From: an uncultured Bacteroidales bacterium
Lineage (GTDB): Bacteria; Bacteroidota; Bacteroidia; Bacteroidales; F082
Direction: 5' to 3'
DNA: 33,146 nucleotides
NCBI GenBank assembly: GCA_946610645.1
Contig: CAMOCK010000218.1
Location: 1 to 33,146, forward strand
Positions 9,752-18,929 of the stretch are shown piece by piece (within the stretch, counting starts at the first letter, position 1; every line of letters begins with the position of its first letter). The notes under the pieces are model-generated. The model made no database searches and was not told the DNA's origin. It saw only the letters and a list, made by a program, of their open reading frames with translations. The position numbers and the translations under genes were made by a program.

Positions 9752-11920
9752 ATGAAAATCGACCCAAAAACCGACACGCTTTGGAAGACCCATCTGGTGT
9801 ATTTTTTGGTACTCCTGTTTGCGGTGGCTATCATATTGAAAATCATCTTGGTGCAGACCCGCGACAGCAAGGAGATCCTGCCGCTGGCCGAGAAAAAGGA
9901 ATACCGCATCAAGGAGTTGAAGGCTTCGCGAGGCAACATCATCTCCTGCGACGGCAACCTCATCGCGACCACCATACCGCTTTTCGACGTGTTTTTCGAC
10001 TACAAGGCCGTGGAATCAGCCGACCCAAACTGCTTGAAAGACAACATCGATTCGCTATGCATACAAATGGCGCAACTCTTCCCGAAAAGAAACGCCAAGC
10101 AATGGAAAGACCATTTCTCAGCGGGAATTGCCAAAGGCAACCGGCATTATCTCATCGCACGCAACATCTCGCTGACGGAGTACCGCAAAATGCAGAAATT
10201 CGTCATCTTCAACCGAGGCAAATACAAGGGCGGCATCGTGGCCGACCAAAAGACCCGCCGCGCCCGGCCCTACAACGAACTGGCCAGCCTCATGATCGGC
10301 ATGGCCAACGAGGAGCAAGGCTACTATTTCGGGCTTGAAGGTGCCTACAACAGCTACCTGAGAGGACAAAACGGCCGCCAATTGGAGCGAAGACTGCACC
10401 ACGGCGACTGGATCCCTGTGGAATCGGAGGACAACACCGACGCGCAAAACGGCAACGACCTCATTACCACCTTCGACATGAAACTGCAAGACATCGTGGA
10501 ATCCGCACTCAACAACACCATGGTGACCAACAAGGCCGAACACGGCTGTGCCATCCTGATGGACGTGGAAACAGGATATGTGAGGGCCATCGCCAACCTT
10601 TCGCGCAACGAGAAAACAGGGGAATATGAGGAAAAATACAATTTCGCCCTGGTGGAACGCTATGAGCCCGGATCGGTGTTCAAAATCGCCTCGATGGTAG
10701 TGCTGCTCAACCACAACCCCAACCTGAAGCTCAGCGACAAAGTGAACATCGGCAGCGGCCCCATCCGCTTCTCGAACCGCACCATGAAAGACGACCATAG
10801 CTTTGCGCAAGGCGGCATCTGCACCGTGCAGGAAGTCATCGAGCAGTCGTCGAACAAAGGCACCGCCGTACTGATCACCAAAGCCTTCGCAGCGCACCCA
10901 GAGAAATATGTCGATGGGCTGTATGCCTTGGGTCTCAACAAGAAAATCGGCACAGGCATCAACGGGGAGGCGCAACCTGTCATCAAGCATCCCAACGACA
11001 AGACCAAAGACGGCAGAAAACTATGGTCAAACGTTTCTTTACCCTGGATGTCAATCGGTTATGAAGTCAATGTCACACCTTTACAGCTCATCATGCTTTA
11101 CAACGCCATCGCCAACGGAGGCAAGATGATGAAGCCCCAGTTTGTCAGCGAAATCCGTCGAGGCAACCAGACCATCGAGAAGTTCGACCCCGTTGTCATC
11201 AACGAGCACATCGCTTCGCCCGAGGCCATCGAAAAGCTCCAAACCATGTTGGCAGGCGTGGTGGAACGGGGCACGGCCAAACGACAGTTCAAGGGCTGCA
11301 TCGTGACAGCGGCAGGCAAAACCGGCACCGCACAATATTACGACAAGGTGCAAGGCTACAGCTATCACGAGCCAGGCATTAGCAGGAAGCTCTACAACAC
11401 CACGTTTGTGGGCTATTTCCCTGCCGACAAGCCCAAATATAGTTGCATCGTGGCGGTCAGCCGCGCCAGAGGCCCTTATTGGGCGGCAGGCAGTGTATCG
11501 GCTCCGGGGTTCCGCGAGATTGCCGAAAAAGTCTATGCCCTGAGACTTGGCATCCAAGACGACACCGACACGTTGCAAATGCAACAAAACACACCTTCAC
11601 CCGTCATCATCCACCACGAACAAGCCAAGGAATTCCTCAGCGGACTGGATGTCGATTATGAGGACTATGCCCTCAACAGCGAATGGGTGATCATCGAGAA
11701 CGGCGAACACGGTGAAACCAAAATCAAAAACGCCAACCTTGAAACAACGCGGATACCCAACGTTGTCGGGATGAATGTCAGCGACGCGGTATATCTGCTG
11801 GAAAACATGGGAATCAGAACCAGCTTCAGCGGACAAGGCATCGTGAAAGAGCAATCGTTGCCTGCCGGCGAACCCGTAAAACCCAATGAAACCATAAACC
11901 TCAAACTCGGAAGACAATGA
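9752..11920 (+). CDS. ftsI: Peptidoglycan transpeptidase (FtsI/PBP3-type) with C-terminal PASTA domain
   Basis: PGSVFKIAS (SXXK), SSN (EQSSNKGT), KTGTAQ ([12 protein letters not shown]), C-terminal [20 protein letters not shown]...[14 protein letters not shown]. Confidence 0.94.
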
Positions 11921-13374
11921 AAATCAAGGAGATATTAGCCAACTGTAATTTAATGGAGATTGAAGGCGACAAAGACATTGACATCCTTGACCTTGCCTTC
12001 GATTCTCGCAAAGTGAAGAACGGCAGCCTGTTTTTCGCCGTGAAAGGGACACAAGTCGATGGCCACGACTACATCGAAAAAGCCGTTGCTCAAGGTGCCA
12101 AGGCCGTCGTTTGCGAAAGGATGCCCAAGGCAAAAGCCGACGGCGTGACCTACATCCAAGTCGATAACTCTGCCTACGTCCTCGGCATGAGTGCTTCCAA
12201 CTTCTTCGACAACCCGTCCAAAAAGCTGAAACTCGTGGGCGTGACCGGAACCAACGGCAAGACCACCATCGCCACCTTGCTGTATAGGCTCTTCACCGAC
12301 GCGGGCTACAGCTGCGGACTGCTCTCCACGATAGAGAACATCGTCAATCTTGAGGCGGTTGCTTCAACCCACACCACTCCCGACCCGCTGGAACTCAACG
12401 CTTTGCTATGCAAAATGGCGGACAACGGATGCGAATACGCCTTCATGGAAGTCAGCTCGCACAGCGTCGAACAAGAACGTATCGCTGGGCTGCATTTCGC
12501 AGGCGGCATTTTCACCAACCTCACCCACGACCACCTCGATTACCACAAGACGATGGCAAACTACCGCAACGCCAAGAAGAAGTTTTTCGACAACCTGCCC
12601 GAAACCGCTTTCGCCTTGACCAACCTCGACGACAAGAACGGCGCGGTGATGCTGCAAAACACGCGAGCCAAGAAACTCAGCTACGCGCTGAAGCACGACG
12701 CCGACTTCAAAGGTGTCGTCATGGAAAGCCATTTCGACGGCATGTTGCTGAAAGTGAACAACACTGAAGTGTTCACCCAATTGGTCGGCGGATTCAATGC
12801 CAGCAATCTCTTGGCCATTTACGGCGCAGCCGTGGCATTAGGGTTCGACAAGAGCGAACTGTTGGTTGAAATCAGCAAATTGCACGGCGCCAATGGTCGT
12901 TTCGACATGGTGCATTCCGAAAACGGCATTGTCGGCATCGTCGATTACGCCCACACCCCCGATGCTCTGGAGAACGTGCTGACCACCATCAACGATGTGC
13001 GCCGCCACAACGAAACGCTCATCACAGTGGTGGGCTGCGGCGGAAACCGCGACACCACCAAACGTCCAGAAATGGCAGCCGTAGCCGTCAGATTCAGCGA
13101 CCGCGTCATCCTTACCAGCGACAACCCGCGAAACGAAGACCCCGACGAAATCATCCGACAGATGAAAGCCGGAATCGCTGCCAAGGACAGCAACAAAGTG
13201 CTTTCCATCACCAATCGCCACGAGGCCATCCGCACAGCGGTGGCCTTGGCCAAGAAAGGGGACATCATCCTCGTGGCTGGCAAAGGGCACGAGAACTATC
13301 AGGAAATCAACGGAATAAAAAACCACTTCGACGACAAGGAAGAGTTGTCGGAAGCTTTTAAGGAGGTCCATTAA
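11917..13374 (+). CDS. murE: UDP-N-acetylmuramoyl-tripeptide synthetase MurE
   Basis: [49 protein letters not shown] (DNPR, mDAP-type). Overlaps ftsI by ATGA. Confidence 0.97.
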
Positions 13375-14651
13375 TGTTGTACTATCTGTTCAATTATCTG
13401 CAAAAATGCAATTTCCCGGGTGCGGGCGTGTTCAACTACGTCACCTTCCGCACGGCAGCAGCGGTCATTCTGGCCCTCGTCATCTCCGTGTGGTTTGGCA
13501 ATTGGTTCATCAAGTTGCTGAAACGCAAGAACATATCCGAAAGCCAACGTGATGCCTCGATTGACCCTTACAATACCAAGAAAGTGGGCGTGCCCACCAT
13601 GGGCGGTGTCATCATCATCACAGCCATACTCATTCCAGTGCTGTTGGTTTGCAAGCTTCACAGCGTTTACACCCTTTTGATGATTGCCACCACGCTGATC
13701 CTTGGCATTTTAGGCTTTGCCGACGACTACATCAAGACCTTCAAGAAACAAAAAGACGGCCTGAAACCCGCTGTGAAACTGGGCGGCCAAGTCCTGCTAG
13801 GTCTCATCGTCGGTTTGACGTTGCGTTTCAGCCCAGCAGTGCATATCAACGAGACAGTGCATGTGAGAATTCAGGACAACAAGGAAATCGTGGTGAAAAG
13901 CCCTGACGTGAAATCGACGCGAACCACCATCCCCTTCTTGAAGAACCACAATCTCAACTATGCCGACCTGTTCAGATGGGCTGGTCCCAAATGGATGTAT
14001 AACCTCGCCTGGGTTTTCTTTGTGTTGCTCACCGTGTTTGTTGTTGCCGCCGTCAGCAACGGATCGAACCTCAACGACGGCATGGACGGCATGGCTTCGG
14101 GCAACTCTGCCATCATAGGAATCACTTTGGTCATTTTGGCCTACATCTCCAGCAACGCAGTGACAGCAGGCCACTTCAACCTGATGTATATCCCTGGAAG
14201 CGAAGAACTTGTGGTGTTTTTGGCAGCCTTCGTCGGGGCACTCATCGGTTTCTTGTGGTTCAATTCCTACCCTGCCCAGATTTTCATGGGCGACACTGGC
14301 AGCCTGACCATAGGGGGCATCATCGCAGTGTCGGCTATCATCATGCACAAGGAACTGCTATTGCCATTGCTCTGTGGCGTGTTCCTCTTCGAAATCCTTT
14401 CCGACTTGGATGTGAAACGTTTCGTCAAGACCGGGAAAAAACACAGAATTTGGAAAAAAGGCCCGTTGCACGACCATTTCCGCACGAGCTATAGCGACTT
14501 CAAAAAGGCTTGGCCCAACTCAACCGTCACCTTCAAAGGCAGCGGCGAGGGGCACAATAGCGTCCACCACGAGGTGAAAATCACCATACGCTTTTGGATT
14601 GTGACCATTCTTTTGGCTGCTTTCACATTGATAACGTTTAAGATAAGATAA
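13374..14651 (+). CDS. mraY: Phospho-N-acetylmuramoyl-pentapeptide-transferase
   Basis: GVPTMGGVIII, FADDYIK, SNGSNLNDGMDGMASG, MGDTGSL, KTGKKHRIWKKGPLHDHF. Confidence 0.97.
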   Translation: MLYYLFNYLQKCNFPGAGVFNYVTFRTAAAVILALVISVWFGNWFIKLLKRKNISESQRDASIDPYNTKKVGVPTMGGVIIITAILIPVLLVCKLHSVYTLLMIATTLILGILGFADDYIKTFKKQKDGLKPAVKLGGQVLLGLIVGLTLRFSPAVHINETVHVRIQDNKEIVVKSPDVKSTRTTIPFLKNHNLNYADLFRWAGPKWMYNLAWVFFVLLTVFVVAAVSNGSNLNDGMDGMASGNSAIIGITLVILAYISSNAVTAGHFNLMYIPGSEELVVFLAAFVGALIGFLWFNSYPAQIFMGDTGSLTIGGIIAVSAIIMHKELLLPLLCGVFLFEILSDLDVKRFVKTGKKHRIWKKGPLHDHFRTSYSDFKKAWPNSTVTFKGSGEGHNSVHHEVKITIRFWIVTILLAAFTLITFKIR

Positions 14652-14661
14652 AAGAACCGAT

Positions 14662-15231
14662 ATGAACTATCTTGAGAGACTAACGAACACCCAAAACCGA
14701 AAACCAGAGAACCTGGCTGCGGGCATTTCCTCCATGATTCTGGAAATCAGGAAGGAAAACATCAAGCAGAGCCTCAGCGACATCAACACTGTGGGTCATC
14801 GGCAAGACTATGTGGGAACGATTGACGGCGTGATGTACTACGACGATTCAAAAGCCGAAAACGTGAACGCCACATGGTTCACTTTCGAAAACATCGTCAG
14901 ACCCGTGGTGTGGATTGCAGGAGGCAACGATCGCAACACCGACTTCAGCGAGTTGAAACCCGTGGCGCGCAAAAACGTCAGAGCATTGGTTTGCATTGGC
15001 AAGGACAACGACAAATTGCTGCGCACATTCGGTGACGACATCGCTGAAATCGTTGTGGCACAAAGCATTGGAGATGCCGTCAAACAAGCTTCGCGCCTGG
15101 CCGAAGAAGACGACATCGTATTGTTTTCGCCCGCCTGCCGTTCCGACCGCGCCGAGAGTTTCGAGACCCGTGGAAAACGTTTCATCGCCAGCGTAAAAAA
15201 ATTGGAAAATGAGCGTCATCAAAAACAATAA
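14662..15231 (+). CDS. murD: C-terminal (Mur ligase C) domain-only MurD homologue
   Basis: 189 aa. ENLAAGISSMILEIRKENIKQSLSDINTVGHRQDYVGTIDGVMYYDDSKAENVNATWFTFENIVRPVVWIAGGNDRNTDFSEL...LFSPACRSDRAESFETRGKRF aligns with the last third of MurD. No GTxGKTT P-loop in this ORF or in the 10 bp between it and mraY. Confidence 0.9.
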   Translation: MNYLERLTNTQNRKPENLAAGISSMILEIRKENIKQSLSDINTVGHRQDYVGTIDGVMYYDDSKAENVNATWFTFENIVRPVVWIAGGNDRNTDFSELKPVARKNVRALVCIGKDNDKLLRTFGDDIAEIVVAQSIGDAVKQASRLAEEDDIVLFSPACRSDRAESFETRGKRFIASVKKLENERHQKQ

Positions 15232-16504
15232 AATCGTCTGGGGCGACAAGGTCATCTGGATTGTGGCTTTGCTGTTGGCCATCATCTCGCTGATTGTGGT
15301 GTATAGCGCCACCAGTGCGAGATATCACGGCCAAACCGGCAAAGTGCTGATGAAGCATGCGGGCATGTTGCTTTTCGGATTCGTCATGATGTTTGGCGCG
15401 TCGAAAATCAGCTACAAGCGTTATGCGAAAGCCGCCCTGCTGCTGATGATTCCTTGCCTGGCACTGCTGCTCTACACGCTTTTGTTCGGTCGCGACATCA
15501 ACGACGCCAACCGTTCCATAAGCCTTGGCGGCATCTCGTTCCAGCCGAGCGAAATGGCCAAGATCATACTCATCACCTACCTCGCCCGACAAATCGTGAT
15601 GATGGGCGACGGCTTGCAGAACTTCAAGGAAGTGATAGTCAAGCTGGCCCTCCCCATCCTCCTGACCGCCGCGCTGATTTTCCCCGAAAACCTGTCCACG
15701 GCTGCCATTTTGGTGATGGTTTGCTTGGTGCTGCTTTTCGTCGCAAGGGTGAAATTCGTTCACATCTTGGCCATCGTAGGCATGTGTGTCGTAGGCATGG
15801 CCTTTTACCTCCTTTTCGATGCCGCCAAGACGGAAATCGGCAACAGGAAAGCCGAGAAAGCCAGCATCGAAGCGGCAGCCAACGGTGGCGTAGCGAAGCC
15901 ATACATACCCAAGAAAAACCGCATCAAGACGTGGTCGAACCGCTTGCAAGCCATGGGAGAAGACAAGGAGGAGGTCGATCTTTTCGACGATAAGCACATG
16001 CAAAGCACCTTCGCGAAAATCGCGGTGGCCTCGAGCTCGTTTTTCGGCAAAGGCCCAGGCAAAAGCACGCAAAGAAACTTCCTGCCTCACCCCTATTCCG
16101 ACTTCATCTATGCCATCATCATCGAAGAATACGGCCTCGTGGGTGCGCTCGTCGTTCTCATGCTCTACATCATATTGTTTACAAGGGTGCTGCGCATTTG
16201 CATCAAACGGCCGCTCACCTTTGGCGCATTGATGGCCTTCGGGCTGGGATTCCTCATCATCGTTCAGGCCATGGTCAATATGGGGGTCTCCATCGGACTG
16301 TTGCCCGTAACCGGACAGCCATTGCCCTTCGTCAGCATGGGCGGCACCTCCATCATGGCAACGGGACTGATTATCGGAATGGTTTTGAGTGTCACCCGCA
16401 GCGTTGAGGACGAATCATCATTGGCACCTGCCACTAATACCATCGAAAGTGAAACCATTGAAATCACAGAAGCAGATGAAACAGAACCCGAAAATCGTGA
16501 TTAG
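15209..16504 (+). CDS. ftsW: Lipid II polymerase FtsW (SEDS family)
   Basis: 431 aa multi-TM; ANRSISLGGISFQPSEMAK, ENLSTAAI, HPYSDFIYAIIIEEYGLVGA, GLLPVTGQPLPFVSMGGTS. Confidence 0.96.
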   Translation: MSVIKNNKIVWGDKVIWIVALLLAIISLIVVYSATSARYHGQTGKVLMKHAGMLLFGFVMMFGASKISYKRYAKAALLLMIPCLALLLYTLLFGRDINDANRSISLGGISFQPSEMAKIILITYLARQIVMMGDGLQNFKEVIVKLALPILLTAALIFPENLSTAAILVMVCLVLLFVARVKFVHILAIVGMCVVGMAFYLLFDAAKTEIGNRKAEKASIEAAANGGVAKPYIPKKNRIKTWSNRLQAMGEDKEEVDLFDDKHMQSTFAKIAVASSSFFGKGPGKSTQRNFLPHPYSDFIYAIIIEEYGLVGALVVLMLYIILFTRVLRICIKRPLTFGALMAFGLGFLIIVQAMVNMGVSIGLLPVTGQPLPFVSMGGTSIMATGLIIGMVLSVTRSVEDESSLAPATNTIESETIEITEADETEPENRD

Positions 16505-17588: not shown

Positions 17589-18929
17589 ATGAAAAACGGA
17601 GAAGGACACACGATTTACATGTTAGGCATAGGCGGCATCGGAATGAGCGCCTTGGCGCGGTATTACCGCAGCCTTGGCTTCGCCGTAGCTGGCTACGACC
17701 ATACTCCTTCCCCGCTCACGAAACAACTGGAAAATGAGGGCATAGCCATACATTATGAAGACATCCCCGAGCTCTTGCCAGCCAGCATCGACTTTGTGGT
17801 TTACACACCCGCCGTCCCTGGCAATCTCAATGAATTTGAGACATTGAGAAAACGTAACATTTTGATAATGAAACGGTCGGAAGCTTTGGGAAAGGTTTCC
17901 GAAAACCATTTCACCATCGCCATTGCTGGAACCCATGGCAAGACCACCACCACTGCCATGACCGCTCACATCCTGAACGCCTGTGGGCGCGACACCACAG
18001 CCTTCATCGGTGGCATAGCCAACAACTTCAACAGCAACCTGCTTCTCGGCAAAGGCAAAGGCAGCCTCATGGTAGTGGAAGCCGACGAGTTCGACCGCTC
18101 TTTCTTGCGGCTGCATCCCGACATCAGCGTCATCAACTCCATCGATGCCGACCATTTGGACATTTACGGCGACAAACGCTATCTCACAGCCTCTTTCAAC
18201 GAGTTTGCCGACCTCACGGCGGAAAAGCTCATCGTCAAGGAAGGATTGGAGATCGAGAACCAAGACCGGCTCCTTTTCGGCTTCGGCGATGGCTGCGACT
18301 TCCGCATCCGCATCGAGCGCATGGTAAGAAGCACCACTGATTTCACCATCACGCACAACGGCATCGAAACCGCAGTGCGGCTACCCATGCCTGGCGCACA
18401 CAACGTGCTGAATGCCACTGCCGCATTCGTGGCTGCATTGCAAGTCGGATTGCAACCTAGCGACATTGCCGAAGCCTTGACTTCCTTCAAAGGCGTAAAG
18501 CGCCGCTTCGACATCCGAATAAGCAACGAAAAACATTGCTACATTGACGATTACGCACATCATCCAGAGGAAATCAAGGCCTGTCTGAAAGCCGTCAGGG
18601 CAGCTTTCCCCGAACAAAGACTCACCTTGGTTTTCCAACCCCATCTCTTCTCGCGCACCCGCGATTTCATGGACGACTTCGCCCAAATCCTGTCTCTCGC
18701 CGACGAGCTGGTTCTTCTGGACATCTACCCCGCAAGAGAGCAACCCATAGAAGGCATCACCTCACTGGCTTTGTTGGACAAGGTGACCTTAGAGCACAAG
18801 AAACTCTGCAAGAAAGAAGACCTTATCGAATTGATTGACAGCGAAAAACCTGAATTATTGGTCACGATGGGCGCCGGCGACATCGACCGTTTTGTTGAAC
18901 CTTTGGAAAAATTGATTTTGACATGGTAA
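17589..18929 (+). CDS. murC: UDP-N-acetylmuramate--L-alanine ligase
   Basis: MLGIGGIGMSALARYY, IAGTHGKTTTTAMTAHIL, EADEFDRSFL, IDDYAHHPEEI, FQPHLFSRTRDFMDDFA. Confidence 0.97.
   Translation: MKNGEGHTIYMLGIGGIGMSALARYYRSLGFAVAGYDHTPSPLTKQLENEGIAIHYEDIPELLPASIDFVVYTPAVPGNLNEFETLRKRNILIMKRSEALGKVSENHFTIAIAGTHGKTTTTAMTAHILNACGRDTTAFIGGIANNFNSNLLLGKGKGSLMVVEADEFDRSFLRLHPDISVINSIDADHLDIYGDKRYLTASFNEFADLTAEKLIVKEGLEIENQDRLLFGFGDGCDFRIRIERMVRSTTDFTITHNGIETAVRLPMPGAHNVLNATAAFVAALQVGLQPSDIAEALTSFKGVKRRFDIRISNEKHCYIDDYAHHPEEIKACLKAVRAAFPEQRLTLVFQPHLFSRTRDFMDDFAQILSLADELVLLDIYPAREQPIEGITSLALLDKVTLEHKKLCKKEDLIELIDSEKPELLVTMGAGDIDRFVEPLEKLILTW

Follow-up and report, generated by a model that had tools for sequence, protein, structure and literature searches.

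The window analysed here, a stretch of 33,146 nucleotides from an uncultured Bacteroidales bacterium, contains a dcw cluster in the order murE, mraY, murD-C, ftsW, murG, murC and ftsQ, and reading frames that read as ftsA and ftsZ come after ftsQ. The original prediction had stated that the place of murD is occupied by a reading frame of only 189 codons with its own ATG, which we call murD-C, that this frame is separated from mraY by 10 bp and overlaps ftsW by 23 bp, that it contains DSKAEN instead of the DSKATN motif, and that murE and murC are intact. The coordinates and the gene calls agree with all of these points. The 20 nucleotides upstream of the murD-C start consist of 55% A. The features are:

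11917 to 13374, forward strand: murE, mDAP type, intact
13374 to 14651, forward strand: mraY, adjoining murD-C on its upstream side
14662 to 15231, forward strand: murD-C, a stand-alone, pseudoenzyme-like C-terminal MurD domain of 189 amino acids
14662 to 14664, forward strand: start ATG of murD-C, aligning with a Met inside full-length canonical MurD (MTLEELALQG)
14845 to 14862, forward strand: degenerate DSKATN motif (DSKAEN) within murD-C
15209 to 16504, forward strand: ftsW, overlapping the end of murD-C
17589 to 18929, forward strand: murC, intact

MurD-C corresponds to the C-terminal part of MurD only, as had been proposed: its match to the NCBIfam murD model TIGR01087 is confined to positions 278-440 of 441 (127.5 bits, E 7e-37, cut-off 212), and it also matches Pfam Mur_ligase_C. 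Both the profile match and the short distance to mraY show that the UMA-binding N-terminal domain and the central P-loop ATPase domain are absent. The predicted structure is mostly confident for residues 47-189 (pLDDT block means 68-94), and the best Foldseek matches of the model are MurD structures (7ti7, E 6.6e-13, probability 1.00). Thus, MurD-C shares both sequence and predicted fold with the C-terminal domain of the MurD ligase. It differs from the ligase in its domain content and in the C-terminal catalytic residues K319, T321, D346, K348 and S415 (E. coli numbering), which are conserved to 100% in 41 full-length dcw-encoded MurDs: within the genus, 83% of the congeners have Glu in place of T321, His, Arg or Ser stands at the position of K348, and 44% retain D346. 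The HN of GxHN is no longer a motif in the truncated MurD proteins. The DSKATN, GGxDxGND and SPACASFD motifs are largely retained in many truncated lineages and degenerate in this genus and in f2, f35 and f79 (f-codes denote family groups); where they are degenerate, D317, R302 and structural positions are almost invariant. Since the ligase domains and motifs are lost while the fold of the MurD C-terminal domain is predicted, MurD-C is a MurD-derived pseudoenzyme-like domain. On its own it cannot be a ligase, as it has no UMA-binding or ATPase domain and has lost GxHN and several D-Glu and ATP residues.

The state of murD-C is not peculiar to one assembly. A scan of GTDB contigs identified 51 Bacteroidales loci with the same MurD C-terminal domain, most of them in metagenomes from the gut of ruminants and other herbivores. 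The comparison with relatives, which the original prediction had proposed as a check, revealed the same truncation in every congener locus with an assembled mraY-ftsW interval, and a collapse or deletion in a single assembly is thus excluded. The frames of all 65 distinct coding sequences of the genus (176-190 amino acids) are intact. At one locus (L125), mraY has been relocated and murD-C still stands in front of ftsW. For six independent close pairs, the ratio of summed dN to summed dS (NG86) is 0.105 for murD-C, close to the value for ftsQ (0.100), and 0.078 and 0.033 for murC and murE, respectively; within murD-C it is 0.137 for the first 46 residues and 0.092 for the remainder. The synonymous divergence of murD-C (0.45) equals that of the neighbouring genes (about 0.41) and gives no indication of added constraint at the RNA level. 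These results bear on two simple explanations. A partial gene that has lost part of its active site would fit with a pseudogene in decay or with a deletion in the assembly; both are refuted by the low dN/dS without relaxed selection, by the unbroken frames in the genus and in 17 other families, and by the occurrence of the same state in dozens of independent MAGs. Alternatively, murD-C might act only in cis, by translational coupling to ftsW as originally considered or as an RNA element between mraY and ftsW, with the protein being irrelevant. The tight operon and the overlap with ftsW in the window would suit such a role; however, the selection on the protein, the neighbour-like dS, the variable spacing to mraY and the absence of the ftsW overlap in a second clade of the genus largely refute it, and we regard it as very improbable. 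It is instead probable, as one part of the overall explanation developed below and judged jointly with it, that MurD-C, which is under purifying selection, functions as a separate protein and descends from the C-terminal part of the canonical MurD encoded in the dcw cluster.

How glutamate may be incorporated in this organism is suggested by a second locus. A full-length MurD or an alternative ligase elsewhere had been one of four options considered, and the genome search indeed found one, of the MurD2 type and next to MurL: contig C13 of the same genome (G000:C13) encodes a full-length MurD homologue whose gene overlaps a MurL reading frame. The latter matches NF041275 over 380 residues (E 1.8e-78, 264 bits), which is below the curated cut-off of 700 bits set on Xanthomonadales. 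In Xanthomonas oryzae, L-Glu is attached by MurD2 and then epimerised by MurL, and E197 and R358 of MurD2 (D182 and K348 in E. coli) set the stereospecificity (PMC8788868). The G000:C13 protein carries both replacements, D182E and K348R, and, this protein included, Glu and Arg are present at these positions in 33 and 34, respectively, of 34 Bacteroidales MurD2s. The racemase MurI was not found in any of 36 genomes of the genus. Judged from its sequence, the G000:C13 protein is a MurD2 paired with MurL and a predicted L-Glu ligase. The pair resembles XOO_1319/XOO_1320 of X. oryzae in the adjacency of the genes, in the two residues and in MurI not being found; it differs in that it is sometimes fused, goes together with the MurD-C state and has a MurL of the low score given above. 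Fusions of MurL and MurD2 into a single reading frame of about 885-996 amino acids (about 900-1000 in congeners) occur in several Bacteroidales including congeners (L036/L111, L098, L100, L109, G021:C20, G138, and G113, G206 and G345 of f79). The C-terminal domain of MurD2 is complete, and MurD-C is therefore not the missing part of a ligase; the earlier idea that the domain works in trans fails in this form, and in other forms it may hold.

Peptidoglycan synthesis almost universally includes the incorporation of D-Glu as an essential step. MurL-MurD2 has been described for Gamma- and Alphaproteobacteria and actinobacteria (PMC8788868), and in the papers that we found it is reported for only few proteobacterial and actinobacterial genera. 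In the open-access literature, we found no paper that describes MurL in Bacteroidota, and none that describes the C-terminal domain of MurD as a protein of its own. Of the 393 Bacteroidales genomes surveyed, 125 have MurL and 249 have MurI above the cut-off, and the two never overlap (Fisher p about 1e-82, such pair statistics being not entirely independent of phylogeny); one further MurL match, a weak fragment, is not counted among the 125. Outside the Bacteroidales, no MurL was found in the sampled genomes of the phylum, except for two weak matches at chance level. About a third of the sampled Bacteroidales thus appear to use the MurL-MurD2 detour, with strict exclusion of MurI.

The truncation of murD follows this division. 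A profile search for the dcw-type domain in 73 MurL genomes found it as a C-terminal-only reading frame in 33, within a full-length murD in 37 and not at all in three. Two of these three (G055 and G159) have no assembled mraY and are thus uninformative; in the third, G111, which has a dispersed dcw cluster, no MurD-C is detectable by profile search. Two apparent truncations at contig ends (G138 and G041) were kept out of the truncated count, and G138 is among the 37. Hence, murD is truncated in 33 of the 70 informative MurL genomes (locus present) as compared to none of 80 MurI genomes. The truncated state spans 18 families, which, with few exceptions, share the Met at which the piece begins. 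In a tree of concatenated MurE, MraY and MurG, a single change separates MurL from MurI genomes, whereas the truncated and full-length states are separated by at least 10 (FastTree) or 11 (IQ-TREE) changes, and f4, f6, f50, f73 and f92 each contain a supported sister pair with opposite states. The single-gene tree of MurD-C, which is too short and in which long branches meet, was left out of the counting. Since the regain of two deleted domains is unlikely, these changes show that many lineages lost the 5' two thirds of murD independently of each other.

The common first Met of the truncated frames corresponds in the alignment to a Met inside full-length MurD that is present in 14 of 14 full-length genes from MurI genomes and in 26 of 27 from MurL genomes (27 of 28 for each group in a larger set). 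The full-length MurDs of the two groups are similarly diverse (mean identity 0.585 in MurL and 0.593 in MurI genomes), and the nine residues starting at the internal Met rank first among 438 segments for conservation gain in MurL genomes: their conservation is 0.81, as compared to 0.45 in the MurDs of MurI genomes, a difference of about 4.5 standard deviations. In Bacteroidota, which initiate translation without Shine-Dalgarno sequences, initiation is tuned by mRNA structure and by A at position -3 (PMC6847099). In the full-length genes of MurL genomes, the A fraction in the 20 nucleotides upstream of the internal Met is 0.48, the same as at true starts of the cluster, as compared to 0.34 at other internal ATGs (p 1e-7), with enrichment of A at -3 and around -12. 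The local folding energy of -3.4 kcal/mol is likewise similar to that of true starts (-4.3) rather than that of other internal ATGs (-11.0, p 2e-12). The signal is weaker in MurI genomes (A fraction 0.35-0.36, energy -6.9). A-richness, weak structure and conservation of the segment are the context expected for internal in-frame translation, and together they give strong statistical support to the idea that the full-length murD of MurL genomes carries an internal start that would yield a nested MurD-C beginning with MTLEELALQG(K/R). MurD-C was probably first made from this hidden start codon in the full gene. The conservation of its first residues could also have a structural cause inside full-length MurD, though the stretch varies in MurI genomes.

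We suggest the following explanation, which as a whole we consider probable. The full-length murD of MurL-bearing Bacteroidales would hold a nested gene, murD-C, that is translated from the internal start. As MurL-MurD2 took over the ligation, the 5' two thirds of murD would have become dispensable and been lost many times, and the nested gene would have survived under purifying selection, with old lineages losing parts of the catalytic site. MurD-C would then be a non-catalytic accessory protein, a partner or regulator of MurL and MurD2 or of the dcw enzymes. Such a role is suggested by the association of MurD-C with MurL genomes and by its position in the dcw cluster; our best guess is that it serves the MurL-MurD2/dcw pathway or the hand-over to MurE, MraY, MurG or FtsW. 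It is tempting to go further and to regard the murD of MurL-bearing Bacteroidales as a gene within a gene, MurD-C as an accessory subunit that the MurL-MurD2 route or the dcw precursor machinery cannot do without, and the outer gene as dropped independently in at least 10 lineages; this stronger version is attractive and, in our judgement, falls short of being probable. Three observations do not fit easily. In G023, which is 97% complete and has MurD-C, no MurL, no full-length MurD and no MurI was found, which argues against a strict dependence on MurL. That no MurD-C is detectable in G111 despite MurL also counts against the explanation. Finally, the full-length dcw MurDs of MurI and MurL genomes alike retain essentially all catalytic residues checked, so that the enzyme may still be a ligase in MurL genomes; in this case, the source of D-Glu there would lack an explanation. 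In MurL genomes with a full-length dcw murD (e. g. L224-L249), MurI was not found, and Dat-related aminotransferases are a possible source of D-Glu. Among MurL genomes, class IV aminotransferases with at least 60 bits are present in 17 of 28 with full-length MurD as compared to 3 of 34 with the truncated form (p 2e-5). A D-amino-acid transaminase as the source was set aside and is no more than a lead: none of these aminotransferases in the MurL genomes is above the Dat cut-off, one is nearer to PabC, and genome size confounds the comparison.

The main rival to the nested-gene explanation is that every MurD C-terminal domain of the Bacteroidales has a general second role, as a scaffold for MraY, MurG and FtsW or in divisome contacts, which is exposed once MurL-MurD2 performs the ligation. 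It requires no prior internal start and no link to MurL beyond permissiveness, the conserved Met being simply the nearest in-frame start. The confinement of truncation to genomes in which ligation by MurD is replaceable, the persistence of the domain beside mraY and ftsW even where mraY has moved away, the presence of the internal Met in all 14 MurI genes and the case of G023 are all in agreement with it. However, it gives no reason why the residues that follow the Met, and a context that is rich in A and unstructured, are particular to MurL genomes with full-length murD, and we consider it rather unlikely. Even less likely is that MurD-C still has D-Glu or a nucleotide as a ligand and affects MurD2 or another Mur ligase in trans, as a swapped or inhibitory domain. 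Young truncations (f40, f6, f59, f33, f73) mostly retain DSKATN, GGxDxGND and SPACASFD, and the best-conserved stretch of MurD-C is the one that in MurD lies against the ATPase domain. Yet MurD2 has a whole C-terminal domain of its own, and K319, T321, D346 and K348 are not retained in f1, f2, f35 and f79, so ligand binding is no strict requirement.

There are precedents for parts of the favoured nested-gene explanation. Cas11 corresponds to the C-terminal portion of a larger protein and is produced by initiation inside the gene of that protein, as for Cas11b (PMC11899642); elsewhere it is encoded by a separate gene. It belongs to an unrelated family, and the internal start of murD is deduced from sequence. 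A Mur ligase fold without ligase function is also known from the MurE-like subunit of the plastid RNA polymerase; weaker Foldseek matches of MurD-C include the chains 8ras_Q and 9epc_Q of this polymerase, which we take to be that subunit. Here, the differences are the eukaryotic plastid, the presence of a whole Mur ligase and the lack of a relation to murD. With a selected non-ligase product of murD that arose many times in parallel, the idea that MurD has a role apart from ligation becomes testable, and there is a natural experiment on how a nested gene turns into an independent one.

Some further genomes deserve mention. In G050 (f16, 2.1 Mb, 98% complete), there is no MurD above the cut-off, no MurL and no MurI, and the D-Glu step is unexplained. 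The MurD of a Lachnospiraceae MAG (RUG14180, L091) resembles MurD2 (36% identity, 265 bits) more closely than it does canonical MurD, and no MurL was found in the 11 kb of sequence covered. Finally, a sublineage of the genus (L083, L085 and L144, the latter at G023:C1) has no murG between ftsW and murC; G023 still has murE, mraY, murD-C, ftsW and murC.
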